From: a virus | Reading direction: 5' to 3' (one strand) | Virus record (IMG/VR): IMGVR_UViG_3300032224_002235 | Span: 1 to 26,322 of that record | DNA length: 26,322 bases | Shown here: in pieces, positions 3,730-25,708 of the stretch | Position numbering within the stretch: the first letter of the stretch is position 1 | Layout of the letters: each line of letters opens with the position of its first letter | Translations under genes and position numbers: made by a program | The notes under the pieces: model-generated | Seen by the model: only the letters and a program-made list of their open reading frames with translations | Databases searched by the model: none | What the model was told of the DNA's origin: nothing

Positions 3730-3737
3730 TAAGTTAT

Positions 3738-5051: not shown

Positions 5052-5052
5052 A

Positions 5053-5580: not shown

Positions 5581-5588
5581 ATAAAAAA

Positions 5589-6056: not shown

Positions 6057-6075
6057 AATATTATTTATATATTTA
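6044..6075 (+). promoter_or_regulatory. Bacteroidota-type promoter within the sugar island
   Basis: TTTGG at 6044-6048 and a perfect TATATTTA at 6068-6075, with a 20-base gap after TTTG. The usual TTTCG before the -7 box is absent (TTTAT here). The -33 box lies inside the end of the zinc-ribbon gene. It would drive the genes from 6091 onward. Confidence 0.65.
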
Positions 6076-6090
6076 ATATAAAGATAAGTT

Positions 6091-6339
6091 TTGAACCGAG
6101 AACAATATATTGAAATGCTTAAAACAAATAGATTTGATATATCTTTGATATATGAGCATTATAATATGTTTAATAAAAATAAATCATTTAACTTTGATTT
6201 AAACACATTTAATAATGTATTTATGCTATACGTTAGTGCTACAGGGTTTAATGTTGATATCATTAAAGATTATTATGATGCCAAGTTCAATATTGTTTAT
6301 CTTTATGATAAAAATCAAAAAATAATAAACATATATTAA
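6091..6339 (+). CDS. Small protein of unknown function
   Basis: An 82-residue protein if it starts with TTG at 6091, or 74 residues from ATG 6115. TTG lies about 9 bases after the predicted transcription start and follows an A-rich leader like its neighbours, but TTG starts would be exceptional in this window, so ATG 6115 is a fair alternative. The protein is rich in Asn, Tyr and Phe and has no motif I recognise. Its stop is one base before the next glycosyltransferase start. Confidence 0.55.
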   Translation: MNREQYIEMLKTNRFDISLIYEHYNMFNKNKSFNFDLNTFNNVFMLYVSATGFNVDIIKDYYDAKFNIVYLYDKNQKIINIY

Positions 6340-6340
6340 G

Positions 6341-6967
6341 ATGAAGATAAGTTATGCTATTACCGTTTGTAATGAATTTGTTGAAATACAACGTTTAATA
6401 AATTTTTTACTTAAAAATAAAAGACAAGAAGATGAGATAGTTGTACTATATGACCAATCTCATGGCGATCCAGAAATTGAATCATTTTTAAGATCTTCAT
6501 CTATTAATAATGAATTTAAATGGTACCCAGATAATTTTGAAAACCATTTTGCTGATTGGAAAAATAAACTAACCAGTTTATGCTCTGGAGATTATATATT
6601 CCAAATAGATGCAGATGAATTGCCTACGACTAAATTAGTAGATTTATTACCCCATATTATCCAACAAAATGTAGATATAGTACTTGTACCTAGAAGTAAT
6701 ACAGTTAAAGGATTAACAGATGAACATATCAAAAAGTGGGGATGGAGTATAGATAACCTAAATAGAGTCAACTGGCCAGATTATCAATGGAGAATTTATA
6801 GAAATTGTCCTGAAATAAAATGGGTAAATAAAGTCCATGAAAAACTTGAAGGATTTAAAACTTATAGTACTCTTCCTTCTGATATGTCACTTGGAGCGGT
6901 ATATTTAAACCATCCCAAAACAATAGAGAAACAAGAAAAACAAAATAATTTATACGATAATTTATAA
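6341..6967 (+). CDS. GT2 family glycosyltransferase
   Basis: A 208-residue GT-A enzyme. It opens with the GT2 strand ISYAITVCNEF (3-13) and reaches the metal-binding DxD motif Asp90-Ala-Asp92 (FQIDADE). A C-terminal segment WRIYRN..IKWVNKVHEKLEG is typical of short GT2 enzymes of the WaaE/SunS-like type, where the VHE histidine/glutamate lies near the catalytic base. The protein is shorter than most GT2 members but has the full catalytic core. It would use a nucleotide sugar in the cytoplasm. Donor and acceptor are unknown. Confidence 0.85.
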   Translation: MKISYAITVCNEFVEIQRLINFLLKNKRQEDEIVVLYDQSHGDPEIESFLRSSSINNEFKWYPDNFENHFADWKNKLTSLCSGDYIFQIDADELPTTKLVDLLPHIIQQNVDIVLVPRSNTVKGLTDEHIKKWGWSIDNLNRVNWPDYQWRIYRNCPEIKWVNKVHEKLEGFKTYSTLPSDMSLGAVYLNHPKTIEKQEKQNNLYDNL

Positions 6968-6976
6968 ACAATTGAA

Positions 6977-8119
6977 ATGAAAAAAATATGGTATGCTCCC
7001 AATAAGTTTGAATCTTACGGAGAAGAAGAAATTAAAGCTGTAGAACAGTGTCTTAGAGATGGTTGGTTAGCAGGGTTTGGTCCTCGTTCAATCGAATTTG
7101 AAGAAAAAATAGCTAAAGAATTTGGAAAGAAATATGGTGTATTTGTTAACTCTGGATCATCTGCTTGTCTTTTAGCTTTAGCTGTACTAAAATTACCTAA
7201 AGGAAGTAAAGTTATTACTCCAGCTTGTACATTTTCAACTACATTAGCACCTATTATCCAGTTAGGTTTAATTCCAGTATTTGTTGATGTTGACTTAACA
7301 GCATATGTTCCTTCAGTTGAAGACACAATTAATGCCGTTACTGATGACGTTAAAGCAATTATGATTCCTAATCTAATTGGAAATAAACCAGATTGGAAAT
7401 TATTGAAATCAGAACTAAAAAGAATTGGAAGAGAAGATATCGTGGTAATTGAAGATTCAGCTGATACTATTTCATATACTGAAGATACAGATATTTCAAC
7501 TACTAGTTTCTATGCGTCTCATGTTATTACAGCAGGTGGATCAGGTGGAATGGTAATGTTCAATGATAAAAAATTACGTGACATATGTTTACAATTTAGA
7601 GATTGGGGAAGAATGGGAGATAATTCTGAAATTGTGGATGATAGATTTAATCATGTTGTAGACGGAATCCCTTATGATCATAAATTTTTATATGATGTTT
7701 TAGGGTATAACTTTAAAAGTTCTGAAATGAATGCAGCATTTGGATTAGTGCAAATTGAAAGATTTGAAACATTTAAAAAAATCCGAAGAACTAATATTGA
7801 GCGTTATTTAGAAAATCTAAAAGATGTTAAAGAAATATTATTACCTAATGATAGCATTGAACCAAATTGGTTAGCTATTCCATTACAAACAGAAAGACGT
7901 TTAGAATTATTAACATTTTTAGAAAATAACAATATTCAAACAAGAGTAACATTTGCAGGTAACGTAACTCGTCACCCAATTTATAGAGAATACCTTCAAC
8001 CATTTGAAAATTCAGATACAATTATGAAAAATGGATTTTTATTAGGTGCTCATCACGGGATGACTGTTGAAGATGTAGATTATGTTTGTGATAAAATCAA
8101 AGAATTTTTTAGTAAATGA
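6977..8119 (+). CDS. DegT-fold PLP enzyme with Lys-to-His change, ColD/E1-type sugar 3-dehydratase
   Basis: A 380-residue member of the DegT/DnrJ/EryC1/StrS fold type I PLP family. NSGSSACLLAL (58-68) forms the phosphate-binding loop, and Asp160 in VIEDSAD is the residue that binds the pyridine nitrogen. In aminotransferases of this family the motif SFYxSK provides the Schiff-base lysine. Here it reads SFYASHVIT, with His182 at that position. The same Lys-to-His change defines the sugar 3-dehydratases ColD (GDP-4-keto-6-deoxymannose) and E1/DdhC/AscC (CDP sugars). I infer removal of the C-3 hydroxyl of a 4-keto-6-deoxyhexose rather than transamination. No cysteine cluster for the 2Fe-2S centre of E1 is evident, so it fits ColD better. 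The encoded GMD would supply its substrate. Confidence 0.82.
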   Translation: MKKIWYAPNKFESYGEEEIKAVEQCLRDGWLAGFGPRSIEFEEKIAKEFGKKYGVFVNSGSSACLLALAVLKLPKGSKVITPACTFSTTLAPIIQLGLIPVFVDVDLTAYVPSVEDTINAVTDDVKAIMIPNLIGNKPDWKLLKSELKRIGREDIVVIEDSADTISYTEDTDISTTSFYASHVITAGGSGGMVMFNDKKLRDICLQFRDWGRMGDNSEIVDDRFNHVVDGIPYDHKFLYDVLGYNFKSSEMNAAFGLVQIERFETFKKIRRTNIERYLENLKDVKEILLPNDSIEPNWLAIPLQTERRLELLTFLENNNIQTRVTFAGNVTRHPIYREYLQPFENSDTIMKNGFLLGAHHGMTVEDVDYVCDKIKEFFSK

Positions 8120-8958
8120 AAAAATTTGTTATAAGCACTCATGGTTTTGACTTTGGGATAGGGGGGTTAAAAGTATTACATAAGTTATGTCATCTATTAA
8201 ATGAAAACGGATATGACGCTTATTTAATCCCCTATAGTTTTAATGAGCCATTCATAACCTATGAAGAATATAACACTAAACTCATAACTCAGGACATATT
8301 AGATAATTTAGAAGATGCTATAGTTGTTTACCCTGAAAGTTGGTATGGGAATTATTTAAATGCTCCTAATGTTGTGAGATGGATGATTGGTCCTCCTAGT
8401 GAAGTTCATATTAATACATGGGATGATAAAGATTTGTGGTTTTGGTATATTCCATACTATACTACCTCCAAATTTAATAAAAACCCAGAAAATCAACTTT
8501 ATATTGGAGAACAACATAGAGATATATTTTTTGATAAAGGATTAGAACGTTCACACACTTGTTGGACATTAAGAAAAGCTCAAGGTCTTATTCAAGAATC
8601 ATCTTATATTCATCCCCAAGATAGTATTTTTATCCCTTATCATAGTGCTAGAGACTTAATAGGATTATCTGATTTATTTAATAAGTCAAAATCATTTTAT
8701 TGTTATGACAATTACACTTACTTAACTATTCAAAGTCTTCTTTGCAATACGGATGCGATTGTTATTCCTTTTAATAATGATAAATTAAAATTTTTAAATG
8801 GATTTGCTTTAAGTAAATACGTCGCTTATGGTTTAGATGATTTGCCTAGAGCTCAAAGTTTAAGAAATGAATTTTGGGATGAAATAAACGAAATTGAAAA
8901 AAATACAATTATACAATTACATGAATTCACACAAAAATGTTATGATTACTTTAAATGA
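8116..8958 (+). CDS. Probable GT-B glycosyltransferase
   Basis: A 280-residue protein. The start FVISTHGFDFGIGGLKVLHKL (4-24) has the glycine-rich loop and following helix of GT-B enzymes, and NVVRWMIGPPSEV (about 84-96) matches the end of the N-terminal domain in some polysaccharide glycosyltransferases. The segment YTYLTIQSLLCNTDAIVIP resembles the donor-binding region. The E-x7-E motif is missing, so it is not a standard GT4 enzyme, and catalysis is an inference. The start overlaps the upstream stop by 4 bases (ATGA), and the following gene starts inside its 3' end, so expression is tightly coupled. Confidence 0.7.
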   Translation: MKKFVISTHGFDFGIGGLKVLHKLCHLLNENGYDAYLIPYSFNEPFITYEEYNTKLITQDILDNLEDAIVVYPESWYGNYLNAPNVVRWMIGPPSEVHINTWDDKDLWFWYIPYYTTSKFNKNPENQLYIGEQHRDIFFDKGLERSHTCWTLRKAQGLIQESSYIHPQDSIFIPYHSARDLIGLSDLFNKSKSFYCYDNYTYLTIQSLLCNTDAIVIPFNNDKLKFLNGFALSKYVAYGLDDLPRAQSLRNEFWDEINEIEKNTIIQLHEFTQKCYDYFK

Positions 8959-9949
8959 TATTAGCATATTAATTGTTACAGCTGCAAAGAGTATCTCACG
9001 ATTAAAATCAGTATACAATCATGTAAGACACCAATATCCAAATAATGAAATTGTTATTGTATATGATAATGTCAATGAAAATATTCTCAAAGTTGATGAT
9101 CCTAATTTAATACAAATTCCTACTAATACACGAGTATATGTAAGTATTGGATATAATTTAGCTATAAAAAACAGTACTAAACCAGGTTTTGTTTTTCTTC
9201 ATGATGATACTTATACTGCTCCTGATTTTTTAGAAAATTTAATCCCCCATATTCAAAAAAATACATTTGCTAATTTTATACAAATAGAACCTCCAAAATT
9301 CCACTCTGAAAGTACCCTTATAAAACCTATTCAAAATTTTGGGTTGGATGAAAATGAATTTGATAAAAATAAATTTGATGAATTTTCAAAAGAATACATT
9401 TCCAACCTCCCATATAATTCAGAACCTTTTCCTTTTGGTGGGTTTTTTATGGCTGGTTATAAAGAATCCTTCTTAGATGTAGGTGGTTTTGATGAAGATT
9501 TCCAACCATATTTTTTTGAAGATTCTGATTTAATGGTTAGACTTCATCTAAAAGGATATAGATTTGTTTTAGTATTAAACAGTATAGTGTATCATATAGG
9601 AAGTTTAACATCCAGAGGAACTAAAGAAAGTGATATATCACATGAAACTACTCATAGAATATTTTTAAATAAATGGAAAGTAGAATTTGAACATTTTAAA
9701 AATTATACTATGTTACATGATATTCCATATAAAAAAATTCTTACCAAAATAAATTGCATTAATTGTAATAAACAACTTGAAGATTATTTAAACATAATCA
9801 GCGAAGATAGTTTAATAGAGGTTTTAGTAGATGGTTCTAAATTAACTCAACAAGAATTTGGATACCTTCAATCTCTATCGTATATTCTCCAAAATATTGA
9901 TGGTCCTGGGACTTATCAAATCGGTTCATTAGAAATAAAATATAAATAA
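8942..9949 (+). CDS. GT2 glycosyltransferase with extra C-terminal domain
   Basis: A protein of 335 residues when started at ATG 8942. The longer frame from 8894 would overlap the upstream gene by 65 bases and lacks a conserved N-terminus, so I chose 8942, where ISILIVTAAKS begins the GT-A domain. HDDTY (His87-Asp88-Asp89) is the DxD-like metal site. GGFDEDFQPYFFEDSDLMVRL forms the usual acceptor/base region, followed by VYHIGSLTSRG. The last 55 residues form a separate domain that resembles the end of the glycosyltransferase at 19344. The shared layout suggests the two are paralogs. Substrates are unknown. Confidence 0.85.
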   Translation: MITLNDISILIVTAAKSISRLKSVYNHVRHQYPNNEIVIVYDNVNENILKVDDPNLIQIPTNTRVYVSIGYNLAIKNSTKPGFVFLHDDTYTAPDFLENLIPHIQKNTFANFIQIEPPKFHSESTLIKPIQNFGLDENEFDKNKFDEFSKEYISNLPYNSEPFPFGGFFMAGYKESFLDVGGFDEDFQPYFFEDSDLMVRLHLKGYRFVLVLNSIVYHIGSLTSRGTKESDISHETTHRIFLNKWKVEFEHFKNYTMLHDIPYKKILTKINCINCNKQLEDYLNIISEDSLIEVLVDGSKLTQQEFGYLQSLSYILQNIDGPGTYQIGSLEIKYK

Positions 9950-9950
9950 A

Positions 9951-11168
9951 ATGCTAGTTAATTTAGGAAAACACCACGTATCAGATTTTATTAAATCTGA
10001 AGAAGATTACAAAGGAAGAAATTTATACAGTTTAGATTTAGTACTTGATACTGAAATAGGAGCTGCAAGACTTACAGAAATGGCCCCACCACAGACTATG
10101 TGGGGTAAATATTGGTACCGTTCAGGTATTAATGCTACTATGAAAAGAGAGTTAGGTGATATAGTTAAAGAAATTACCTCTCGAATAAAAACAAAAGAAG
10201 GAGATATTTGGTTAGATATTGCTTGTAATGATGGTACATTATTATCACAAGTACCGGATCAATATATAAAATTAGGTATTGATCCATGTGACGATAGTTA
10301 CTATGTAGAATCTTCTAAACACGCTACCATTGTTCAAGATTATTTCTCTTATGATGCGTATCAACGAACTGGTCATAGTGATAAAAAAGCAAAGGTCATT
10401 ACTACTATTGCTATGTTTTATGATCTTTTAAACCCACATCCTTTCATTTCAGACATTACTAAAGTATTAGATGACAATGGTATTTGGGTAGTTCAAATGT
10501 CATACACCCCACTAATGCTTCAACAGTTAGCATTTGATAATATTTGCCATGAACATGTTTATTATTATTCATTAAATTCAATCCAAAAATTATTTACACA
10601 GCATGGATTAAAAATAGTTGATTGTAGTTTAAATGATGTTAATGGTGGAAGTTTTAGAGTATATGTTCAAAAAGAAACAGCAGATATATCTTCTTTTGGT
10701 ACAAGTCCACTACGTGATGTATGTAATTTTAGAGTTCAATCAATTTTAAATTATGAAATAAGCCACTTTGATATTGGAAAACCTGAAGTATGGGAGGAAT
10801 TTATGAATAATATTGAATCTTTAAAAACTCAAACAGTTGAATTTATTAAAAAAGCTAAATCAGAAGGTAAAACAGTTTGTGGTTATGGAGCATCAACTAA
10901 AGGGAATACTTTATTACAATGGTTTGGTCTAGATAATACATTAATTGATGCTATCGCAGAACGTTCTCCATATAAATTTGGCTTAAAAACTATAGGTACT
11001 AATATCCCAATATTATCAGAAGAAGAAGTTCGTGCTATGAACCCAGATTATATGTTAGTTCTTCCTTGGCATTTTATTTCCGAATTTGTTATTAGAGAAA
11101 ATGAATACTTAATGAATGGTGGTAAATTTATAGTACCTTGTCCTAAATTTGAAATTATAGAAAAATAA
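9951..11168 (+). CDS. Nucleotide-sugar C-methyltransferase
   Basis: A 405-residue SAM-dependent methyltransferase of the TylC3/NovU/TcaB9 type, which methylates a carbon (often C-3) of NDP-4-keto-6-deoxy sugars. Layout: an N-terminal domain (1-60) matching Methyltransf_13 with YWYRSG; the SAM motif IWLDIACNDGTLL (86-98); the active-site block HEHVYYYSL, in which TcaB9-type enzymes place their catalytic His; and a C-terminal domain with GYGASTKGNTLLQW and a final CPKFEII. Family members usually bind zinc through four N-terminal cysteines, but none is visible here before residue 92. The gene follows after one base and precedes GMD. The likely substrate is a 4-keto sugar made by the neighbouring dehydratases. 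Confidence 0.85.
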   Translation: MLVNLGKHHVSDFIKSEEDYKGRNLYSLDLVLDTEIGAARLTEMAPPQTMWGKYWYRSGINATMKRELGDIVKEITSRIKTKEGDIWLDIACNDGTLLSQVPDQYIKLGIDPCDDSYYVESSKHATIVQDYFSYDAYQRTGHSDKKAKVITTIAMFYDLLNPHPFISDITKVLDDNGIWVVQMSYTPLMLQQLAFDNICHEHVYYYSLNSIQKLFTQHGLKIVDCSLNDVNGGSFRVYVQKETADISSFGTSPLRDVCNFRVQSILNYEISHFDIGKPEVWEEFMNNIESLKTQTVEFIKKAKSEGKTVCGYGASTKGNTLLQWFGLDNTLIDAIAERSPYKFGLKTIGTNIPILSEEEVRAMNPDYMLVLPWHFISEFVIRENEYLMNGGKFIVPCPKFEIIEK

Positions 11169-11178
11169 AATAAACAAA

Positions 11179-12153
11179 ATGAAAAAAAGAGCATTAATTA
11201 CCGGAGTAGGTGGTATGGATGGCAGCCATTTAGCAGAGTTTTTATTAAGTAAGGGTTATGATGTATTTGGAATTGAAAGAAGAAAAGCAATAGAAGATAG
11301 AACTAATACAGCCGGTATTATGGATAATATTCATTTTTTGAAAGGAGATTTAGCTGATCAAAATTCATTAGTACGATGTTTAAAAGAGGCACAACCCCAT
11401 GAGGTGTATAATCTAGCAGCTCAATCCTTTGTTGAGGATAGTTGGGACACACCAGAAGTTATTGCTAATACAACAGGTATAGGGGTATTAAGAATGTTAG
11501 AAGCAATCCGCGAGTATGGTAATAAAGACATTCGCTTTTATCAAGCATCTTCTTCGGAAATGTTTGGGAGGATGGTAGAAAACCCTGCGAATGAGTATAC
11601 ACCATTCTATCCGCGCAGCCCATATGGAATAGCAAAGTTATATGGACACTGGACTTGTAAAAATTATAGAGAATCTTACGGTATGTACAACTGTAGTGGA
11701 ATTTTATTTAATCATGAGAGTGAGAGACGTGGTAAACAATTTGTTACTAGAAAAATTACTCATGGTGTAGCAAAAATTCATTTAGGATTAGCTGATGTTC
11801 TTGCTTTAGGTAATCTAGAAGCTTCAAGGGATTGGGGATATGCTCCTGATTATATAGAAGGGATGTGGATGATGCTACAGCAAGATGCTCCTGATGATTA
11901 TGTACTAGCTACTGGGGAAACTCGTACTATTAGAGAATTGTTGAATGTAGCTTTTAGTTTTGTAGGAATCGAAGACTGGTCGCAATACGTAATAAAGGAT
12001 GAAAAGTTCTTTAGACCTGCAGAAGTAGATGTGCTTAGAGGTAATGCTAGTAAAGCTGAAAATGTATTAGGTTGGAAGCCAAAAACAACATTTCAAGAAA
12101 TGATTAAAAAAATGGTTCAAAATGATATAAACTTATTACAAAACGCTGGGTAA
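11179..12153 (+). CDS. gmd: GDP-mannose 4,6-dehydratase
   Basis: A 324-residue extended SDR enzyme converting GDP-mannose to GDP-4-keto-6-deoxymannose, the first step to fucose, rhamnose, perosamine and colitose. ITGVGGMDGSHLAEFLLSKG (7-26) is the NADP-binding loop, with MDGS in place of the usual QDGS. SSSEMFG (124-130) and Tyr149-x3-Lys153 (YGIAK) form the catalytic set. NHESERRG and ITHGVAKIHLG are highly specific for GMD. The end WKPKTTFQEM is also typical. The length is slightly below the usual 340-370. Codon use seems a little richer in G and C than the neighbours, a weak hint of separate acquisition. No mannose-1-phosphate guanylyltransferase is in the window, so GDP-mannose must come from the host or from elsewhere in the genome. 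Confidence 0.93.
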   Translation: MKKRALITGVGGMDGSHLAEFLLSKGYDVFGIERRKAIEDRTNTAGIMDNIHFLKGDLADQNSLVRCLKEAQPHEVYNLAAQSFVEDSWDTPEVIANTTGIGVLRMLEAIREYGNKDIRFYQASSSEMFGRMVENPANEYTPFYPRSPYGIAKLYGHWTCKNYRESYGMYNCSGILFNHESERRGKQFVTRKITHGVAKIHLGLADVLALGNLEASRDWGYAPDYIEGMWMMLQQDAPDDYVLATGETRTIRELLNVAFSFVGIEDWSQYVIKDEKFFRPAEVDVLRGNASKAENVLGWKPKTTFQEMIKKMVQNDINLLQNAG

Positions 12154-12166
12154 TTTAAAAAATAAT

Positions 12167-12418
12167 ATGGATACAATAGGAAATTTAATCGACAAATTAA
12201 CAATTGCTAATATTCGAATTTGGATGGCAGAAGATATTAAACGTGATAAAAATGCCACAGATAAACAAATTGCAGACGCAACACGAGTAACTAATGTAGT
12301 AAATGGATTGAGAACAGACTTAATTCAAGAAATTGATGAATCACTCAATAAAATGGTAGGTACCGGTGAATTACAAAAATTATACAAACAGGGCTCAACT
12401 AAAATGTATGGGAAATAA
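12167..12418 (+). CDS. Small DUF4254-like helical protein
   Basis: An 83-residue, mostly helical protein. It starts TIGNLIDKLTIANIRIWMAEDIKRD and continues with NVVNGLRTDLIQEIDESL. This pattern (IDKL, N-x4-W-x-ED, then RxDLIxEID) resembles the short DUF4254 proteins encoded beside polysaccharide genes in Bacteroidota and in large phages. The function of that family is not known. The gene is placed between GMD and a likely glycosyltransferase, whose start overlaps its end by 11 bases. Confidence 0.7.
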   Translation: MDTIGNLIDKLTIANIRIWMAEDIKRDKNATDKQIADATRVTNVVNGLRTDLIQEIDESLNKMVGTGELQKLYKQGSTKMYGK

Positions 12419-13217
12419 TATAACAAACTTTGTTATGGGAGGTAAATTGGGGGATTTTATCCAATCCCTCTATGCCGTTAAAAATATATGCAAGCAACGT
12501 AATTCTAAAGCAAATGTTTACATGTATGATATTGGGTGGGAATTTGGAATAAAAAACACTTATACTGAATTATATCCTATTTTAATGCAACAAGAATATA
12601 TTAATTCATTTGATATTCTTGAGAATTATCATCTTGATCCAATTCAAACACCAAATCAAAACTCTCCTATTATTATATATGATGAAAAACTTGTTGGACA
12701 AGGTTATATAGATTTAGGGGAATATTTGAGATCTCCACTTTTATATAAAACATGTTGGTCTGAATTATATAGTGATATGTGTGGTTTTTCTATTGAAGGA
12801 GAATATGAATGGATTAAATATAATAACTTTGATAATAAATTAAAAGATCGTATATTAATTCAAAGAAAGGCAGCAACCAGAACTAATGAAAAGTTTCCAT
12901 ATGATCAAATTGTTGAACAATATGGAGATAGTTTATTATTTATATCTTCAAATGATAATGATTATAATGAATTTCCATTCAAATCTAAAGTTGATTACCT
13001 TAAATTAACTACTTTAGATGAATGGTTTACATCAATAAATTCTTGCCAGATGATAATAGCTAATTTATCAGCACCCTCTGCAATAGCCCATGCTTTAGAT
13101 AAATTAAGAATAATAGAACTTCCATTTACAGCTGATAGCTATCACTGTATAGGAGAAGAAAAATATTCAGATAATATATTCTATTATTTAAACGAACAAT
13201 GTAACAACTTAATATAA
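12408..13217 (+). CDS. Probable GT9-like glycosyltransferase
   Basis: A 269-residue protein starting at ATG 12408, chosen because GGKLGDFIQSLYAVKNI follows at once; the longer frame from 12366 would run inside the upstream gene. The GGxLGDxIxSL opening and the late segment ANLSAPSAIAHALDKLRIIELP (which parallels the S-GPxHIAxAL motif of heptosyltransferases) suggest a GT-B enzyme of family 9. The protein is shorter than typical GT9 enzymes and the similarity is modest. It ends the promoter unit; the intergenic region that follows holds a promoter. Confidence 0.62.
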   Translation: MGNNITNFVMGGKLGDFIQSLYAVKNICKQRNSKANVYMYDIGWEFGIKNTYTELYPILMQQEYINSFDILENYHLDPIQTPNQNSPIIIYDEKLVGQGYIDLGEYLRSPLLYKTCWSELYSDMCGFSIEGEYEWIKYNNFDNKLKDRILIQRKAATRTNEKFPYDQIVEQYGDSLLFISSNDNDYNEFPFKSKVDYLKLTTLDEWFTSINSCQMIIANLSAPSAIAHALDKLRIIELPFTADSYHCIGEEKYSDNIFYYLNEQCNNLI

Positions 13218-13226
13218 TAAAATATA

Positions 13227-13258
13227 TTTGGCTATTTATTTCTTTTTTCGTATGTTAT
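13227..13258 (+). promoter_or_regulatory. Promoter for the second half of the sugar island
   Basis: TTTGG at 13227-13231, then TTTTTTCG and TATGTTAT at 13251-13258, with the standard 20-base gap after TTTG. The -7 box differs from the window consensus (TATGTTAT against TATATTTA). It fills the 72-base gap between genes, one of the larger gaps in the island. Confidence 0.65.
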
Positions 13259-13289
13259 ATTAAAATCACATTTAAAAAACAAATAAAAT

Positions 13290-13991
13290 ATGAGTTTATT
13301 TAGAACACAAAACCCTGAACCTTTTGTTACTATGAAAGATATGGATACATATCATAGCCACGAATGGGCTGAGGGAGGTAGTTTAGAACGTATCCAAGAA
13401 GATGTTTGGATAAAAAGATATCAATATGAAGCTCAACTTATTTCAAATACAATAAATCAAAATCCTAAAATAAAAAATGTATTAGAAATAGGAAGTGGCC
13501 CGGGAGTACTTTCTCAAGAAATATTGAAAATTCATCCTGAATTGGATTATCATTTGATTGATAAACCTTTTGCTGAAAAAGCATTTAAAGATAAAAATTT
13601 TAAAGGGACATTTTTTGTTAAGGATTTAGCAGAACAATTCGATATTACTGGGTTGAGAGAAAAATATGATTTAGTAATAATGAATGATTTTTTAGAGCAT
13701 GTTACTAATCCTCATTTAATCCTTAAAACAGTTTATAATTTAACCCACACTAACTCAATATTTTTTATTAGTAATCCAAATTGGAGGATGGGTCATCCTT
13801 TTATTTATAGAGGAGCTTTTGATTTTGATAATTTTATATTTATGTTGCATTTTCACTGTTTTGATTTAGAAGGATTCTATGGATCGTTATTGAAAACTCC
13901 ATTTTTCCCTAAATTAGATAGTGAAAAAATGCTCCCAGATGAAAATTTAACTGATTGGAATCATTATTTTGTTTTTAAACATAGAGATTAA
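13290..13991 (+). CDS. Class I SAM-dependent methyltransferase
   Basis: A 233-residue enzyme of the Methyltransf_23 type. VLEIGSGPGVLSQEIL (64-79) is SAM motif I; YDLVIMNDFLEHVTNP (about 128-143) is the motif III/IV region with the EHV pattern; SIFFISNPN marks the next strand. It has a Rossmann core and no membrane segment. Its substrate is not readable: an O-methyl group on the assembled sugar is the usual role in such clusters. It is the first gene after the internal promoter and is followed by an SDR after 2 bases. Confidence 0.82.
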   Translation: MSLFRTQNPEPFVTMKDMDTYHSHEWAEGGSLERIQEDVWIKRYQYEAQLISNTINQNPKIKNVLEIGSGPGVLSQEILKIHPELDYHLIDKPFAEKAFKDKNFKGTFFVKDLAEQFDITGLREKYDLVIMNDFLEHVTNPHLILKTVYNLTHTNSIFFISNPNWRMGHPFIYRGAFDFDNFIFMLHFHCFDLEGFYGSLLKTPFFPKLDSEKMLPDENLTDWNHYFVFKHRD

Positions 13992-13993
13992 TT

Positions 13994-14962
13994 ATGATAA
14001 AAGTAGTATATATAACAGGATGTTGTGGGTTTATAGGTTCCCATGTGACAAGATTATGTCTTAAAAAAGGATGGTATGTAAAAGGGGTTGATAAAATGAC
14101 TTATGCTGCCAATAAAGATTTATTAGATGAATTTAAATCTTATCCAAATTTTTCATTTGTTCATAGTGACATCAATGATTTAAAATTCCTATATGATTGT
14201 GATTATATAATTAATACAGCAGCTGAAACCCATGTTGGTAATTCAATTGCCAGTAGTGCTGAATTTGTTAAATCAAATATTGATGGAGTTCATAACTTAC
14301 TTGAATTAATTAAAAATCATAGAGGAGAAAACAGTAAAAAACCTGTATTATTACATTTCAGTACAGATGAAGTTTATGGTGATATAGATGAAGGAGCACA
14401 CACTGAAGATCACCTATTAAAACCAAGTAACCCATATTCAGCAACTAAAGCGGCCGCTGATATGTTAGTAATGGCTTGGGGTAGAACACATAATGTACCT
14501 TATATGATTATTCGTCCAACAAATAATTACGGTATAGGTCAATATGTAGAAAAATTGATTCCAAAAGCAATTAAATGTTTAAGTTTAGGTAGAAAAATAC
14601 CTTTACATAATGATGGTATGCCTTATAGAAACTGGTTACATGCAAGTGACACAGCAGAAGCAGTAATTACATTAATAGAAAAAGGTAAAATTGGTGAAAT
14701 ATATAATGTTGCTGGAGGATTTGAACAACGTAACATAGATACAGTTAATGCTATAATAACTGAATATTTTAATGATAGACCTTCTATAGCTAGCATAATG
14801 CATAAAGATTATATAGATTTATCAGTTAATAGACCAGGACAAGATGTTCGTTATGCGCTAGATGATTCTAAAATAAGAGCTTTAGGATGGAAACCAAAAA
14901 GCTTGTTTTCTCAAGAAATCATTCGTATAATTAACCATTATAAAAACAAGTTCATATGGTAA
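13994..14962 (+). CDS. Extended SDR, RmlB-like NDP-sugar 4,6-dehydratase family
   Basis: A 322-residue NAD-dependent enzyme. TGCCGFIGSH (8-17) is the nucleotide-binding loop, with CC replacing the common GA or GG. FSTDEVYG (122-129) gives the Thr124-Asp125-Glu126 triad of dTDP-glucose 4,6-dehydratases, and Tyr148-x3-Lys152 (YSATK) completes the active site. RPTNNYG and EKLIPKAI match RmlB further. It would oxidise at C-4 and eliminate water at C-5/C-6 of an NDP-hexose. No RmlA partner is in the window, so the nucleotide carrier is uncertain. The stop overlaps the start of the ThDP enzyme by 7 bases. Confidence 0.85.
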   Translation: MIKVVYITGCCGFIGSHVTRLCLKKGWYVKGVDKMTYAANKDLLDEFKSYPNFSFVHSDINDLKFLYDCDYIINTAAETHVGNSIASSAEFVKSNIDGVHNLLELIKNHRGENSKKPVLLHFSTDEVYGDIDEGAHTEDHLLKPSNPYSATKAAADMLVMAWGRTHNVPYMIIRPTNNYGIGQYVEKLIPKAIKCLSLGRKIPLHNDGMPYRNWLHASDTAEAVITLIEKGKIGEIYNVAGGFEQRNIDTVNAIITEYFNDRPSIASIMHKDYIDLSVNRPGQDVRYALDDSKIRALGWKPKSLFSQEIIRIINHYKNKFIW

Positions 14963-16710
14963 AAATTAGTGATGTTGTAGCAGATTTCTTAATTAAAAAC
15001 AATATTAAAGTTGTATTCGGAATTATAGGATCAGCTAACTCACATATATATAATTCATTAAATAAACACCCCCATATCAAACTAATACCTGTTCATCATG
15101 AGCAAGCGGCAGTAATGGCTATGGGGGCTTATTATCGTTCAAGTGGAGAAATGTCTGTAGCATTAGTTACAGCTGGAGGTGGATCTTCAAATGCTTTTAC
15201 TGGAATACTTTCAAATTGGGCAGATTCAATCCCAGGAATAATTATCTCAGGTCAAGAACAATCATATTATATTAATGAATATTCAGATATGAGAATGTAT
15301 GGTATTCAAGGATACGATTCAGTAGATACGTTTTCAAAACATACCAAAATGTCTGTTCGAATCACTAAAGAAAATGTATATGAATCATTTAAAAAAGCAT
15401 TTGAAACAACCCAAACTGGAAGACCAGGTCCTGTATTTTTAGAAGTACCATTTGATATTCAAGGACAGATGGTTGAAGAACAAATTATAACACCATTTGA
15501 AAAAACTTCACATTCTTTATTAAATAACGAAGCTTTAAATATTATAGAACTTCTTAATCAAAGTAAAAAACCTGTTGTAATAGGTGGACATGGTGTTAAA
15601 TTATCTCAATCTGAAAAGTTGTTTAAACAATTTATTGAACAACATAATCTACCTACAATATTAACTTGGTCAGCAGTAGATTTACTTGAAGAAACAAACC
15701 CAAACAATTATGGCCGTTCAGGTGTTCAAGGGCAACGTTCATCCAATTTTATTGTTCAAAACTGTGATTTATTAATTGTAATGGGAAGTAGATTATCTCT
15801 ATTACAAACAGGATATTCTAGGAAAGATTTTGCTCCACATGCAAAAATAATCCACATTGATATAGATTCAACAGAAACAAATAAATTTGATGGATTGTCA
15901 ATTAATAAAGACATTGGAGCAATTTTATCTAGCTTAAATAATTTTAGTGATAAAATTAACATAGACATTACAGATTGGAATAAATATTGCAATAATATTA
16001 GAAATGAATATCCTCGAGTAATGCCTGAGCATTTAGCAGATCCTACAAATTCATATACATTTATAGATTGGTTTTCAAATAAAATATCTGATAATTATAC
16101 TATTGTTACAGATATGGGGACTGCATTATTGAGTGGATTTTATGGTTTTAATATTAAACCAAATCAAAAAATGTTTACTTCTCTTGGTTTAGGAGAAATG
16201 GGATACGGCTTAGCAGCAGCAGTTGGAGCGGGATTTGGACCTAACCCAGTAATGTGTTTAAATTGTGATGGGGGTATGATGATGAATCTTCAAGAACTCC
16301 AAACCATCAAAACTCATAATTTACCAGTTAAAATAGTTATTTTTAACAATGATGGTTATTTAATGATTAAACACACTCAAAACATGCTTTTTAAAGGAAC
16401 TAAAACATGTGTTGATAAAAAAACAGGTGTTGAACTCCCCGATTATAAAAAAGTAGCAGAAGCATTCGAATACGAATATTATACAATAGATCGAATTGAT
16501 GAATTTTTATCATCTCCAAATCAAGGTATTTTAGAAGTATTTATGGATCCAAACCAAGAATTTATCCCTAAAGTAAAAGGTATTCAAAATAAAGATAACA
16601 CAATTCAAGCAGGTCTTTTGGAAGAAATGTCTCCTTTATTACCTTTAGAAAATATTGAAGCAGTAATGATATCAGGAACACATGAACGTAGTAAAACAAT
16701 AACAAGATGA
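14956..16710 (+). CDS. ThDP-dependent enzyme, acetolactate synthase-like
   Basis: A 584-residue enzyme with the three-domain layout of the acetohydroxyacid synthase/pyruvate oxidase family. The PYR domain contains catalytic Glu49 in HHEQAAVMAMGAYYR. A central domain spans about 190-330. The PP domain has the ThDP/Mg motif NCDGGMMMN, ending in IVIFNNDGYLMIKHTQ. It would decarboxylate a 2-oxo acid such as pyruvate and transfer the resulting two-carbon unit. In a sugar cluster the closest known precedent is YerE, which adds an acetyl group to a 4-keto sugar in yersiniose synthesis; true acetolactate synthase is less likely because no branched-chain amino acid genes are present. It overlaps the next gene by 4 bases and forms one cassette with it. 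Confidence 0.85.
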   Translation: MVKISDVVADFLIKNNIKVVFGIIGSANSHIYNSLNKHPHIKLIPVHHEQAAVMAMGAYYRSSGEMSVALVTAGGGSSNAFTGILSNWADSIPGIIISGQEQSYYINEYSDMRMYGIQGYDSVDTFSKHTKMSVRITKENVYESFKKAFETTQTGRPGPVFLEVPFDIQGQMVEEQIITPFEKTSHSLLNNEALNIIELLNQSKKPVVIGGHGVKLSQSEKLFKQFIEQHNLPTILTWSAVDLLEETNPNNYGRSGVQGQRSSNFIVQNCDLLIVMGSRLSLLQTGYSRKDFAPHAKIIHIDIDSTETNKFDGLSINKDIGAILSSLNNFSDKINIDITDWNKYCNNIRNEYPRVMPEHLADPTNSYTFIDWFSNKISDNYTIVTDMGTALLSGFYGFNIKPNQKMFTSLGLGEMGYGLAAAVGAGFGPNPVMCLNCDGGMMMNLQELQTIKTHNLPVKIVIFNNDGYLMIKHTQNMLFKGTKTCVDKKTGVELPDYKKVAEAFEYEYYTIDRIDEFLSSPNQGILEVFMDPNQEFIPKVKGIQNKDNTIQAGLLEEMSPLLPLENIEAVMISGTHERSKTITR

Positions 16711-17570
16711 AAATAAAAGTAGCAATTTTAGGCACAGGAAATATAGGTACTGATTTAATGTTAAAATCACTTAAAACTGATTTTATAGATATAGTAGCGT
16801 TTGTAGGAAGAAGATTAGATTCTCCTACTATGCAAATAGCCCAATCTAAAAACATCCCAATCTCAGATCAAGGAATTAATTATTTTATAAATAACCCAAA
16901 ATGTTGTGATGTTGTTTATGATTGTACCAGTGCAGAAGATGCTAAAGAACATGCTAAAATATTCAAAGAACAAGGAATTAAAGTAATTGATTTAACCCCA
17001 GCTAAGGTAGGAGATATGTGTGTTCCGGATGTTAACTCAGATATTATTTTAACTGATGATAATGTGAACATGATTACTTGTGGTGGTCAAGCTTCAATGC
17101 CTATGTTACATTTGATTTCAAAACATTGTACAGGATTAGAATACATTGAAATAGTATCTCAAATTGCCTCTAAAAGTGCGGGTATGGCAACTAGAATTAA
17201 TGTTGATAATTATATTGCTACAACAAAAAAGGCTATTACTAAATTTACAGGATGTAAAAATAATAAAGTTATTTTAAATTTGAATCCTGCTGAACCTTGT
17301 GTTGATATGCAAACTACTATTTTTATCAAAACCAAAGATATTAATTTTAATCATTTAACTGAAGAAATAGCTGATAAAATTGAGGAATTAAAAACATATA
17401 TTCCTTATTATGAATTAGTTTTGCCTCCAACAATGAATGAAAATGGTATAGTAGTGTTAAGTATTAGAGTAAAAGGAACAGGTGATTATCTTCCTGAATA
17501 TGCTGGAAATTTAGATATCATAAATTGTGCCGCTATTAAAATAACAGAAAAATTAAGCAAAAACATATGA
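16707..17570 (+). CDS. Acylating acetaldehyde dehydrogenase, DmpF/MhpF family
   Basis: A 287-residue NAD-dependent enzyme that interconverts an aldehyde and its acyl-CoA. VAILGTGNIGTDLM (5-18) is the Rossmann loop; DCTSAEDAKEH (72-82) follows; Cys125 in TCGGQASMPML is the catalytic cysteine of the family; and a C-terminal dimer domain ends with EYAGNLDIINCAA. In catabolic operons this enzyme is bound to the DmpG aldolase and receives acetaldehyde through a channel. Here the aldolase gene follows with a 4-base overlap, so the complex is likely kept. The genomic setting is a sugar cluster instead of aromatic degradation. The usual length is about 300-315 residues, so it is slightly short. Confidence 0.88.
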   Translation: MKIKVAILGTGNIGTDLMLKSLKTDFIDIVAFVGRRLDSPTMQIAQSKNIPISDQGINYFINNPKCCDVVYDCTSAEDAKEHAKIFKEQGIKVIDLTPAKVGDMCVPDVNSDIILTDDNVNMITCGGQASMPMLHLISKHCTGLEYIEIVSQIASKSAGMATRINVDNYIATTKKAITKFTGCKNNKVILNLNPAEPCVDMQTTIFIKTKDINFNHLTEEIADKIEELKTYIPYYELVLPPTMNENGIVVLSIRVKGTGDYLPEYAGNLDIINCAAIKITEKLSKNI

Positions 17571-18568
17571 AAAATATAATTATTACAGATTCCAGCCTTA
17601 GAGATGGAAATCATAGCGTTAAACATACAATCAGTCTAGATAGTATTGAAAAATACTGTCAGTTCGCAGATAAAGCTAATATACCTATTGTTGAAGTAGG
17701 ACATGGTAATGGTTTAGCTGCTTCATCTTTATTGATAGGAAAATCTCCAAATACAGATAAAGAAATGTTAACTGTAGCTAGAAAAAATTTAAAAAAATCA
17801 AAACTTGGCATTCACACTATCCCAGGGTTATCAACTATTGATGATGCAAAATTAGCTATTGATTGTGGTGTAGATGTATTTAGAGTAGCAACCCATTGTA
17901 CAGAAGCTACTTTATCAAAATCACACATTGAATCTCTTTCAAAATATGGAAAAGATGTATATGGAGTTTTGATGATGTCTGCTCTTATTACTGCTGAAGA
18001 ATTAGCTGAGCAAGCTAAAATTATGGAAGATTATGGAGCTCAAGCTGTTATTATAATGGATTCAACAGGTACTTATTTACCTCAAGATGTAAAAGAAAGA
18101 ATTAGTTTATTAAAAGATAAATTAAATATTAAAGTTGGATTTCATGCTCATAATAATTTAGGATGTGCTGTAGCTAATTCATTAATAGCAGCAGAGAATG
18201 GAGCTGAATTAATTGATGCATGTATTAGAGGATTTGGAGCAGGTGCAGGTAACGCACCCTTAGAATTAATAATTCCAGTATTTGAAAAATCAGGTTATAC
18301 TACAGGTATTAGCTTTGAAGAAACTATTAAAGAAGCTGATAGAGTAATGGATTATTTAGTTCCAAATGCTCCTATTACCACTCCAATCAATGTATTAACT
18401 GGGTTAACTAGATTGTTTTCTGGTTTTGAAAAACCAATTGTAAAAGCATCTAAATTATATGGAATTGAATATTCATCATTAATATTTGAATTAGGTAATA
18501 GAAAATTAGTTGCTGGACAAGAAGATTTAATTTTAGAGGTAGCTCAAAAACTCAAAAAAAGTAAATGA
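17567..18568 (+). CDS. 4-hydroxy-2-oxovalerate aldolase-like enzyme, DmpG/MhpE family
   Basis: A 333-residue class II pyruvate aldolase of the DmpG type. SSLRDGNHS has Arg12, Asp13 and His16, the positions of the catalytic arginine, metal ligand and catalytic histidine. VEVGHGNGL and RVATHCTEA follow, then GFHAHNNLG with metal ligands His193 and His195, and GFGAGAGNAPLE. The C-terminal communication domain ends with ELGNRKLVAGQEDLI. As I recall the family, YAGVYSS is found here with a catalytic or stereocontrolling tyrosine; this protein has FSGFEKP, so both tyrosines are phenylalanine. Altered aldehyde specificity is inferred. It overlaps both its neighbours by 4 bases. Confidence 0.88.
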   Translation: MKNIIITDSSLRDGNHSVKHTISLDSIEKYCQFADKANIPIVEVGHGNGLAASSLLIGKSPNTDKEMLTVARKNLKKSKLGIHTIPGLSTIDDAKLAIDCGVDVFRVATHCTEATLSKSHIESLSKYGKDVYGVLMMSALITAEELAEQAKIMEDYGAQAVIIMDSTGTYLPQDVKERISLLKDKLNIKVGFHAHNNLGCAVANSLIAAENGAELIDACIRGFGAGAGNAPLELIIPVFEKSGYTTGISFEETIKEADRVMDYLVPNAPITTPINVLTGLTRLFSGFEKPIVKASKLYGIEYSSLIFELGNRKLVAGQEDLILEVAQKLKKSK

Positions 18569-19347
18569 AAATATTAATTACTGGTAAAAGTGGTTATATT
18601 GCAAGAAGTATCCATTCATATCTATACTCTAAATATGATATAACTATTGTAGGAAGACAAGATTTTGATTTAACAAATTCATCTGAAACATTAGAATATT
18701 TTTCAAATAAAGATTTCGATATTGTTATACATTGTGCTGTAAGTGGAGGTAGTAGATTAAAACCAGATAATTGGGATGTTTTAGATGATAATCTTAAAAT
18801 GTATTACAATCTATTAAATTGTAATAATAAATTCAAAAAATTAATCCACTTTGGATCAGGAGCAGAAATATATTCTCCTGAAACACCATATGGATTAAGT
18901 AAAAAAGTAATTTCTAAATCTATTACAGAAAAAGAAAATTTCTATAATTTAAGAATATATGGTGTATTCGATGAAAATGAATTAGATACTCGTTTTATTA
19001 AAGCTAATATTAAACGTTATATTAACAAAGAATCTATTATTATTCATCAAGATAAATTTATGGATTTCTTTTATATGAAAGATTTGGTTTCTTTAGTAGA
19101 ATATTATATATTAAATACCTCTCCACCACAAGAAATAAATTGTAGTTACAATAAAAAATATACTCTAAGTGATATAACAAATATTATTAATAATCTAGAT
19201 AAGCATTCAGTAGATATAGAATATAATATTAAAGGATTAACTGACAATTATAACTTCAATGGAGAAAACCTACTTTCTAATTTACCACTTTTGGGTTTAG
19301 AAGAAGGTATAAAAAATGTTTATAATATATTAAAACAACAAAAATGA
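18565..19347 (+). CDS. Short SDR reductase/epimerase, GDP-fucose synthase (Fcl/ColC)-like
   Basis: A 260-residue SDR enzyme. KILITGKSGYIARSI (2-16) binds the nucleotide; IHCAVSGGSR (55-64) parallels the HxAxxxGG region of GDP-fucose synthase; the active site is Tyr109-x3-Lys113 in PYGLSK. It is about 50 residues shorter than Fcl. In a GMD-containing cluster the likely role is reduction and/or epimerisation of a 4-keto sugar, or reduction of a branched ketone as in YerF. I cannot choose between these. It is translationally coupled on both sides. Confidence 0.78.
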   Translation: MKILITGKSGYIARSIHSYLYSKYDITIVGRQDFDLTNSSETLEYFSNKDFDIVIHCAVSGGSRLKPDNWDVLDDNLKMYYNLLNCNNKFKKLIHFGSGAEIYSPETPYGLSKKVISKSITEKENFYNLRIYGVFDENELDTRFIKANIKRYINKESIIIHQDKFMDFFYMKDLVSLVEYYILNTSPPQEINCSYNKKYTLSDITNIINNLDKHSVDIEYNIKGLTDNYNFNGENLLSNLPLLGLEEGIKNVYNILKQQK

Positions 19348-20621
19348 AAAACATAACATTTTGCATTAATACTGCTAGAAATGAGATAGATCATATTAAG
19401 TTATTATTTAAATCATTAGAAAATAACTTATCAGTCTTAACACATGAAATCATAGTTTTTATAGATAGTGATAACCAAGGAACTACAGAGTGGTTATTAA
19501 CTCAAAAACCTACATTTCCCAATCTTAAAATTCTTAAGAATGAATTACCTATACCTTATGGATATCAAAGAAATATTAATGAAATGTTTGAATTTGCTTC
19601 AAATGAAATAGTATCTTACTTACAATCAGATATGGTTATTTGTAAAGATTATGATGTTGAAGTTCTTAAACATTTAGAACCAAACATGATTCTTTGCTCT
19701 ACTAGAATTGAACCCCCTCTCCATGGCAATTCAGGAGAAAAAATTACTTATAATTTTGGTTTAGATCCTAAAAAATTTAATTTAGACGTATTTACTAAGT
19801 ATGCTGAGGAACAAAAACAAGAAAAAATTACCAAATATTTCTTTGCTCCATTTACTTTATATAAAGATACATGGAATTCAATTGGTGGTCATGATACTAT
19901 ATTTAGACGTTCAAGAGAAGATTCGGATATTTTAACTCGATTAGTATTAAATAATACTAAAATCATTCAAGTTTGGAATGCCTTAGTTTATCATTTCACT
20001 TGTACATCTAGCAGAGGAAAAGATTGGTTTGATTCAAATAATCAAGAAGCCCAAAATAAAGCTAAATTACAACAATTTGCAGACCAAATTGAGATGGGGA
20101 AATTTTTTAGAAAATGGGGTAAATTTAATCACTCCACAGATAAAATAAAATATTATGAAATATCTGCTAATATTTTAGGTAAAAATTCTGTTTTAAATAA
20201 GTTTATTGCATTTGAAAGTTTCTTTGATAAAGTATATGTTAAAGATGAAACTATAATCCCCTCAATACAGGAAGAATATGATAAACAACAAACTATTGCT
20301 AATCAGCTTTTAAATGTATCATTTGAAGATTGGAAAAAATATGGGTATATGTTTAATCAATTAAACGTTAAAGATAGAATCTATCCATTAAATAACAGCA
20401 AAGGAGATATAATAGTAGAATTTGATATTAATTTGGTTGATGAAAATTATATTAATGATTTCTTTATTCATTTGCAGGATATAATAGATCAAACAGAAAT
20501 TGGTAATTTTGAATACGGGCCTTTTAAAATTATTATCCACAAAAAAGAAGATAGGGCCCAAAATAAAATTTTTATTTCAAATCCAATAATAAGTAAAAAA
20601 CATTTATATAAAATTCTTTAA
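19344..20621 (+). CDS. GT2 glycosyltransferase with long C-terminal extension
   Basis: A 425-residue protein. ITFCINTARNEIDHIKLLFKS (4-24) opens a GT-A domain. The metal site is close to LQSDMVICKDYD (about 93-104), and an acceptor region reads GGHDTIFRRSREDSDIL, then VYHFTCTSSRGKDW. The C-terminal domain IIVEFDINLVDENYINDFF...YGPFKIII resembles the last 50 residues of the glycosyltransferase at 8942. The two proteins share the same layout, so they are likely paralogs with diverged cores. It is the last gene in the coupled sugar operon. Substrates are unknown. Confidence 0.8.
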   Translation: MKNITFCINTARNEIDHIKLLFKSLENNLSVLTHEIIVFIDSDNQGTTEWLLTQKPTFPNLKILKNELPIPYGYQRNINEMFEFASNEIVSYLQSDMVICKDYDVEVLKHLEPNMILCSTRIEPPLHGNSGEKITYNFGLDPKKFNLDVFTKYAEEQKQEKITKYFFAPFTLYKDTWNSIGGHDTIFRRSREDSDILTRLVLNNTKIIQVWNALVYHFTCTSSRGKDWFDSNNQEAQNKAKLQQFADQIEMGKFFRKWGKFNHSTDKIKYYEISANILGKNSVLNKFIAFESFFDKVYVKDETIIPSIQEEYDKQQTIANQLLNVSFEDWKKYGYMFNQLNVKDRIYPLNNSKGDIIVEFDINLVDENYINDFFIHLQDIIDQTEIGNFEYGPFKIIIHKKEDRAQNKIFISNPIISKKHLYKIL

Positions 20622-25168: not shown

Positions 25169-25480
25169 ATGGAGAAAAAAGGCTATACTGAAAAATTAAA
25201 ATATGATTTTAACACTGCTCAAGGTCTTGAAGTAGAAGTAAATGGAATATTTTACAGAACTACAGCTAATGACTTTAGATCTTGGGGAGGAAAGAGAAGA
25301 ATGTTAAATGTTAAAGATAGAACAAATCCAATATATGAAGAATATTTTGGCCCTGTCTATTATTTAGGTACTAATAAAATAGTACCACAAAATGAAATAA
25401 CAGACAAGATAAACTATCTAGACGGGTATGAAAAAATAAAATCACGTCCACGATCACGTGCAGAATATTTGGTATCCTAA
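25169..25480 (+). CDS. Small protein of unknown function
   Basis: A protein of 103 residues from ATG 25169, chosen over a TTG at 25157 because of spacing and codon preference. The sequence has YDFNTAQGLEVEVNGIFYRTT and IYEEYFGPVYYLGTNKIVP, suggesting a small beta-rich domain. The end of the gene holds the -33 box of the tRNA-like RNA promoter. No family is recognised. Confidence 0.65.
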   Translation: MEKKGYTEKLKYDFNTAQGLEVEVNGIFYRTTANDFRSWGGKRRMLNVKDRTNPIYEEYFGPVYYLGTNKIVPQNEITDKINYLDGYEKIKSRPRSRAEYLVS

Positions 25481-25499
25481 AATAAACTTCGTATATTTA
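25468..25499 (+). promoter_or_regulatory. Promoter for the tRNA-like RNA
   Basis: TTTGG at 25468-25472, ATCCTAAAA spacer, CTTCG at 25487-25491 and TATATTTA at 25492-25499; 20-base gap. The predicted start is about 7 bases upstream of the first acceptor-stem base at 25513, so the RNA needs only minor 5' trimming. Confidence 0.8.
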
Positions 25500-25512: not shown

Positions 25513-25624
25513 AGTCAGGTGGTGTAATGGTAGCCAATAGTAGTATCACGAGTTCAGTAATCCTCCCAACCGTACGTGAATAAAGGAGGTAACTATACAG
25601 GTTCGATTCCTGTCCTGACTACCA
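25513..25624 (+). ncRNA. 112-nt tRNA-like RNA with a possible pseudoknot in place of the anticodon arm
   Basis: The ends are those of a tRNA. AGTCAGG (25513-25519) pairs with CCTGACT (25614-25620) as a perfect 7-bp acceptor stem, followed by A and an encoded CCA. The T arm is perfect: ACAGG, loop TTCGATT, CCTGT (25597-25613). The D arm GGTGTAATGGTAGCC (25521-25535) has the conserved GG. Between 25537 and 25596 no 17-base anticodon arm can be formed. Three other helices are visible: ATAGT (25537-25541) with ACTAT (25592-25596), directly against the T arm; and TCACG (25546-25550) with CGTGA (25575-25579), interleaved with CCTCC (25562-25566) and GGAGG (25585-25589), an H-type pseudoknot topology. 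An ordinary tRNA is excluded by size. A short intron or a new stable RNA are the alternatives; T4 also makes stable tRNA-like RNAs of 120-140 nt of unknown function. Confidence 0.7.
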
Positions 25625-25634
25625 TCACAAGTAG

Positions 25635-25678
25635 AACTAATTGGCCGTGTAAAGGTGCCACTACCAAGAAATTTAGTT
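25635..25678 (+). other. Hairpin in the transcript after the tRNA-like RNA
   Basis: AACTAA (25635-25640) pairs with TTAGTT (25673-25678). Inside it TTGG (25641-25644) can pair with CCAA (25664-25667), or TGGC (25642-25645) with GCCA (25657-25660). It lies between the CCA end and the terminator. It may be only a spacer that 3' processing removes. Confidence 0.35.
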
Positions 25679-25682
25679 GACG

Positions 25683-25707
25683 ACTCGGAAAGACGAGTAT
25701 ATTTTTT
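25683..25707 (+). terminator. Rho-independent terminator of the tRNA-like transcript
   Basis: ACTCG (25683-25687) pairs with CGAGT (25694-25698) over a GAAAGA loop, followed by ATA and six T. It closes a transcript of about 200 nt that starts near 25506. The next promoter begins two bases after the T run. Confidence 0.75.
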
Positions 25708-25708
25708 A

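Follow-up and report, generated by a model that had tools for sequence, protein, structure and literature searches.

The stretch of viral DNA analyzed here (an IMG/VR virus record of 26,322 bases, referred to as the window) carries, at positions 25513–25624, an RNA that is very probably a non-decoding member of a tRNA-framed family named after its AGTCAGG acceptor strand. An earlier note on this DNA had described the RNA by itself; what goes beyond it is that the RNA belongs to a large family, constant in its frame and variable in its centre, and that a conserved 3′ element lies within the same predicted transcript. The features of the locus, including the putative helices of the centre, are as follows:

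25487–25499, plus strand: promoter-like motif CTTCGTATATTTA, a near-copy of the recurring intergenic motif TTTCGTATATTTA of this phage
25513–25519, plus strand: 5′ strand of the acceptor stem (AGTCAGG), forming 7 of 7 pairs with 25614–25620
25520–25536, plus strand: D-arm-like segment UGGU-GUAAUGGUA-GCCA, assigned from the sequence and the Rfam tRNA alignment
25537–25541, plus strand: 5′ strand of the outer helix (AUAGU), able to pair with 25592–25596 and part of the three-helix test
25546–25550, plus strand: 5′ strand of the putative pseudoknot helix S1 (UCACG), able to pair with 25575–25579
25562–25566, plus strand: 5′ strand of the putative pseudoknot helix S2 (CCUCC), able to pair with 25585–25589
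25575–25579, plus strand: 3′ strand of S1 (CGUGA), able to pair with 25546–25550
25585–25589, plus strand: 3′ strand of S2 (GGAGG), able to pair with 25562–25566
25592–25596, plus strand: 3′ strand of the outer helix (ACUAU), touching the T stem, with the variable loop absent
25597–25613, plus strand: T arm ACAGG-UUCGAUU-CCUGU, with 5 of 5 pairs
25614–25624, plus strand: 3′ strand of the acceptor stem (CCTGACT), A73 and an encoded CCA, the latter being part of ACCA at 25621–25624
25625–25678, plus strand: conserved 54-nt 3′ element with core TTGGCYGTGTAAAGGTGCCACTACCAAGAAA in a stem AACTAA/TTAGTT, also present in loci L003 and L132
25679–25708, plus strand: terminator-like hairpin ACTCG-GAAAGA-CGAGT with T-run (the terminator scan marks 25683–25708)

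The tRNA-like parts that had been read from this sequence before (i.e., a perfect 7-bp acceptor stem, an encoded CCA, a perfect T arm and a D-arm-like segment) were all found at 25513–25624. The D stem is formed by UGGU (25520–25523) and GCCA (25533–25536), with a GG inside the D loop, and since it starts right at the end of the acceptor stem, the two-base linker (positions 8–9) is absent. While the acceptor stem, the T arm and the GG-containing D loop expected of a tRNA are thus present, a canonical anticodon arm (5 bp plus a 7-nt loop) is absent from the Rfam tRNA alignment of this RNA, and its 60-nt middle is unable to make one. The Rfam tRNA model (RF00005) scored the RNA at 32.1 bits (cut-off of 29) with a 56-nt insert replacing the anticodon arm, in line with the earlier note; this match appears only under permissive filters and is missed by default-filter cmscan. 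ARAGORN called no gene on this RNA.

The earlier note had further proposed a helix stacked on the T arm without a variable loop, and two interleaved 5-bp helices. Both were recovered: AUAGU/ACUAU abuts the T stem, and UCACG/CGUGA and CCUCC/GGAGG can form an H-type pseudoknot, apparently the best fold found for the centre. An equally stable combination of outer helix and pseudoknot was obtained in none of 2000 dinucleotide shuffles, in a test whose architecture had been named from the very sequence tested. Nested folding of the 113-nt sequence gave no stability above that of shuffles (z of –0.38). An RNA at position 11508 of L082, on another phage contig, clearly offers the same outer-helix-plus-pseudoknot plan (matched by 0 of 300 shuffles) and shares the junction GGTAGCCANTAG with the window RNA. 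The plan is confined to these two RNAs and perhaps a few others. Covariation, proposed earlier as a check, was found at the family level, in the D and T stems and in subfamily centres (see below), but not for the window centre; because the latter is a singleton, with no homologue found, its pseudoknot is without covariation support.

Two known RNA classes offer rival readings. The first is tmRNA, and reading the window RNA as a tmRNA-like rescue RNA or a tmRNA relic would account for tRNA-like ends plus a pseudoknot; a genuine tmRNA gene (68.8 bits) also adjoins family members in L063. Nevertheless, among the tmRNA models tested (RF00023 and RF04321), the sole match, of 9.4 bits, covered just the T arm in the permuted model, the third acceptor pair is U-A rather than G-U, and a D stem is present, which makes a tmRNA origin extremely unlikely and agrees with the earlier note, which had argued against a tmRNA. 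The tmRNA gene of L063 itself, a phage gene at 553–939 on the minus strand (68.8 bits in Rfam), has the ARAGORN tag DNTISRQEEGARIINMAFANVEMAVAA.

The second is Y RNA, in which case the window RNA would be a partner of a Ro60 (TROVE) protein. Contig G008, home of the architecture closest to that of the window RNA, encodes a protein with TROVE and Ro60-vWA domains, and the bacterial Y RNA YrlA has a tRNA-like domain (PMC8394870). However, among 30 contigs with family members, TROVE turned up in one alone, and not in the four others longer than 130 kb, the ends of YrlA make a Ro-binding stem whereas those of the window RNA make an acceptor stem, and no Y RNA family match was found in the window, so that this reading is hardly probable. 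The Ro60-like protein of G008 (TROVE and vWA_Ro60 domains) is encoded at L154 1442–3088, and the contig carries several family RNAs.

The surroundings of the window RNA support a dedicated transcription unit, as the earlier note had proposed, with a promoter-like motif upstream and a terminator-like hairpin with T-run, found by scan, downstream. The motif TTTCGTATATTTA has 10 plus-strand matches in the window at two mismatches or fewer, versus 1.5 in shuffles, and six of the matches are exact; it is probably a phage-specific promoter. The exact copies lie at 21549, 22993, 23789, 24896, 25728 and 26145, most of them just 5′ of ORFs. A sigma-70-like scan also flags 25469–25497. The near-copy at 25487–25499 ends 13 nt before the RNA start, so that the predicted promoter was recovered whereas its reported distance of about 7 bases was only approximate.

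Since the terminator-like hairpin (hairpin proper at 25683–25698) lies about 60 nt past the CCA, the predicted transcript exceeds the tRNA-like part. The intervening 54-nt element recurs in L003 (starting at 7001) and in L132 (spanning 9098–9153), where it sits after an ordinary tRNA and its stem is GGACAT/ATGTCC instead of AACTAA/TTAGTT; across the three loci the core is invariant and the outer stem covaries. No Rfam match was found for the element following the CCA. A supposed further copy in L133 was rejected as a chance match within a coding-like stretch. In the window and L003, the element is followed by a hairpin with loop GGAAAGAC (window 25679–25698; L003 7055), and hairpins with this loop occur in about a dozen other loci, mostly a few bases 5′ of AGTCAGG genes. 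A 4-bp stem flanked 17 of 72 GGAAAGAC sites, versus 0 to 2 for control loops, and the recurring form is TGAC-R-stem-GGAAAGAC-stem-AA with a covarying stem. Loci with this hairpin type are L008, L014, L021, L029, L059, L064, L098, L101, L111, L125, L136, L154 and L158, and a processing or termination signal is a possible function.

The family was collected with a search that specified the acceptor and the start of the D arm while leaving the centre free (i.e., AGTCAGGTGGN{62,92}CCTGACTA). The pattern AGTCAGGTGG...CCTGACTA matched at least 120 IMG/VR viral loci, versus 9 loci for a permuted acceptor under equal constraints, and also occurred in four bacterial genome bins, two of which are labelled Bacteroidota. 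From the DNA fetched, a set of 169 non-identical copies was assembled, in which the AGTCAGG 5′ strand is present in 157, the CCTGACT 3′ strand in 166, A73 in 163 and C74 in all 169. The window RNA shares this acceptor, A73 and C74, together with D and T arms and the absence of an anticodon arm. Since the D stems (GCG/CGC, GTG/CAC, GCA/TGC) and position 50 of the T stem (C-G, A-U, G-C, U-A) vary with compensation, the family frame is a real RNA structure.

The acceptor, by comparison, is fixed in sequence, with G-U changes as its sole variation. This fixity is partly a matter of ascertainment, because the search itself named the acceptor, but further copies recovered from the same arrays by an acceptor-blind scan also bear AGTCAGG, and the other acceptors in those arrays belong mostly to normal tRNAs. 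A fixed acceptor points to a recogniser, or else a processing route, that the members have in common. One form of the former would be a single host synthetase that charges the RNAs via the constant acceptor, A73 and a leucine-type D arm, either for a non-decoding use or for titration of the synthetase or EF-Tu. All seven acceptor pairs are indeed fixed beyond the needs of folding, A73 is nearly universal, and the commonest D arm of the family, GCGGAATTGGTAGACGC, is leucine-type, matching that of bacterial tRNA-Leu; the leucyl-tRNA synthetase of Escherichia coli (LeuRS) ignores the anticodon. Such charging would leave the structured, hypervariable centre unexplained, and the D arm of the window RNA is not leucine-type; we regard this explanation as rather unlikely.

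A canonical anticodon arm is absent in 164 of the 169 members. Under the same strict test, 178 of 252 tRNA-like genes with other acceptors at the same loci have the arm and 74 do not. This bears on whether the window RNA could be an ordinary decoding tRNA, either odd in its anticodon or variable region or interrupted by a spliced insert, as its 32.1-bit Rfam tRNA score and the few members that do have a normal arm (L042 with Lys UUU, for instance) might indicate. The rarity of the arm speaks against this, as does the closing helix of the window RNA, which leaves no variable loop. The stems required by an intron were found in 7% (class I) and 13% (class II) of centres, compared with 2% and 9% in shuffles, and inserts of about 60 nt are below the size of known self-splicing introns. 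We consider a decoding tRNA very unlikely. A standard tRNA with a spliced intron, which the earlier note had named as the reading that would overturn its own, was rejected, the required stem being rare and in only small excess over shuffles.

Up to 12 copies occur per contig (within about 5 kb), often among ordinary tRNAs; another contig has 11 copies alongside a nearly complete ordinary tRNA set, and the window copy stands alone. Dedicated tRNA finders miss or mislabel family members, giving the anticodon as "???" or making odd Ser, Pro, Ile or Val calls, and Rfam returned nothing but tRNA and one tmRNA on array loci rich in these RNAs. A second tRNA-like series with core GTAATGAGG..GGTGCCGAGTCC..GGTTGC was noticed in L037, L041, L063, L075, L080, L098 and L099; the acceptors of the GTAATGAGG..GGTGCCGAGTCC series are TGTCAGG, GGCTAGG, AGCTAAG and AGTCAGG.

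The centres are highly diverse: 124 distinct ones (median of 47 nt) remained after removal of near-duplicates. From the T arm on, the window matches L003 at 89% identity over 157 nt, yet the two centres cannot be aligned. Subfamilies of centres are nevertheless maintained across contigs. In one, found in seven contigs, a 7-bp helix with an inner 4-bp hairpin is kept with compensatory changes; over the whole structure, eight pairs changed on both sides, a count reached by 0 of 500 shuffles, and sliding the partners abolished the signal. In a subfamily of five, the sequences favour interleaved helices, the second of which contains one compensatory pair, and the L096/L123 pair shows two double changes within a single 7-bp helix. 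Averaged over the centres, foldability exceeds that of shuffles only slightly (mean z of –0.56). Interleaved helices beat shuffles (p ≤ 0.05) in 18% of 118 centres and tandem hairpins in 17%, a modest enrichment in each case. With less than a fifth of the centres above shuffles and tandem hairpins performing just as well, the pseudoknot is not the architecture of the whole family, and a family-wide pseudoknot was rejected. By this comparative evidence, the centres are diverse modules rather than one common fold, some of them demonstrably structured. An antisense guide was likewise rejected: in five contigs, the centres matched the remainder of the contig they come from no more closely than shuffled versions did (one duplicated copy excepted), which makes self-targeting antisense unlikely.

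Constant ends around unalignable centres, in many copies that differ from phage to phage, could also be those of a spreading or recombining cassette whose centres are swapped or drift and are functionless themselves. A tRNA-Ile(UAU)-like body found with the AGTCAGG acceptor in L068 (4958) and with another acceptor in L135 (3534) points to apparent module exchange. Nevertheless, compensatory changes in the D and T stems and in some centres, the persistence of subfamilies across contigs and the promoter motif of the window copy itself are not expected of functionless centres, and we hold a mere cassette to be unlikely.

The window shares gene types with larger family-bearing contigs, six of which encode the T4-type capsid protein Gp23. 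Among the phages collected, the closest relative of its PD-(D/E)XK nuclease is that of Flavobacterium phage immuto, and glycosyltransferase genes come after the nuclease gene in both. The host of the window phage is likely a member of the Bacteroidota; a T9SS sorting domain found in the protein set of contigs G001 and G004 agrees with this. The 3′-end motif of the family was not found in immuto, the nearest cultured relative, at three mismatches or fewer. Separately, the window carries glycosyltransferase, aminotransferase, epimerase and acetolactate-synthase-like genes at 2299–20621, probably a cluster for sugar biosynthesis. The cultured Tenacibaculum phage pT24 has two near-identical "tRNA-Undet" genes and an odd tRNA-Pro (L173 2796–3241) and, with its Flavobacteriaceae host, might serve as an experimental model.

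Taken as a whole, our proposal is that of a non-decoding, tRNA-framed RNA, matured as a tRNA and carrying a variable module that acts as a decoy, and we put its chances at about even. Transcription would start a few bases upstream of 25513 and end at the hairpin near 25700, after which host RNase P would cut at 25513 and the 3′ end would be trimmed back to the encoded CCA. This would release a stable product of about 112 nt, with a tRNA-like elbow built from its acceptor, D and T parts, and the pseudoknotted module would take the place of the anticodon arm. Since the frame is near constant and the module fast-changing, it is probably the module that does the work, and the frame would serve maturation, stability or recognition. 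The RNA might then act in trans, as a decoy for a host factor directed at RNA or as an inhibitor of it; a nuclease of a defence or toxin system would be an example, and the various copies could each have targets of their own or follow targets that change. It is established that hosts defend themselves by cleaving tRNAs and that phages counter this with tRNAs of their own (PMC10264068, PMC11555353), and because phage tRNAs can counter RNA-cleaving defences, the decoy or inhibitor is our leading reading. This arms-race role is a guess, and the evidence does not point specifically to a decoy over another use. That large environmental phages hold a hypervariable RNA arsenal, with many structured modules on a fixed tRNA-like frame swapped against host RNA-directed defences, is a more doubtful, though conceivable, extension; if true, the arrays would be a natural counterpart of the engineered tRNA scaffold.

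The purpose of tRNA arrays in large phages is debated, and such arrays also hold many tRNA-shaped RNAs that do not appear to decode. A constant frame with a changing module predicts processing by host tRNA enzymes and module-dependent activity, and if the modules are decoys, they would be pointers to unknown host factors.

Among known systems, the closest precedent is formed by RNA C (species 1, 139 nt) and RNA D (species 2, 119 nt) of phage T4, which are stable and of unknown function (PMC9697503, PMC3014915) and, like many family members, are phage-encoded within a tRNA cluster. The 3′ terminus of RNA C is a perfect T arm CCGGGTTCGAATCCCGG with CGTTTCG-TACA after it, and the family likewise has a tRNA-like 3′ end. 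By inspection, however, the T4 RNAs are two single RNAs that differ in acceptor, T stem and centre, and neither matches the Rfam tRNA model. In the part of the T4 literature covered, no family with constant frame and variable centre was found described around them; nor did we find any paper or Rfam family on a constant tRNA frame with variable modules, which is weak evidence given partial coverage of the literature. YrlA, too, combines counterparts of the tRNA acceptor, D and T regions with a separate functional module and has no normal anticodon arm (PMC8394870), but its 5′ and 3′ ends form the Rsr-binding stem, whereas those of the AGTCAGG family form an acceptor stem with C74 or CCA. Similarly, tmRNA resembles the family in its tRNA-like ends and in the pseudoknot(s) replacing the anticodon domain, while the window RNA differs in its lack of G3-U70, its D stem, its predicted length of about 112 nt and the want of any Rfam tmRNA match beyond the 9.4-bit T arm. 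Defence-evading phage tRNAs are again phage-encoded, come from tRNA arrays and have been proposed or shown to counter host RNases (PMC10264068, PMC11555353); they decode, with altered or supplementary anticodon arms, in contrast to the AGTCAGG family, which is without this arm. The family belongs with the tRNA-like stable RNAs of phages, where it reopens the question of the role of T4 RNAs C and D, and there is a real chance that it is more than another example of them.
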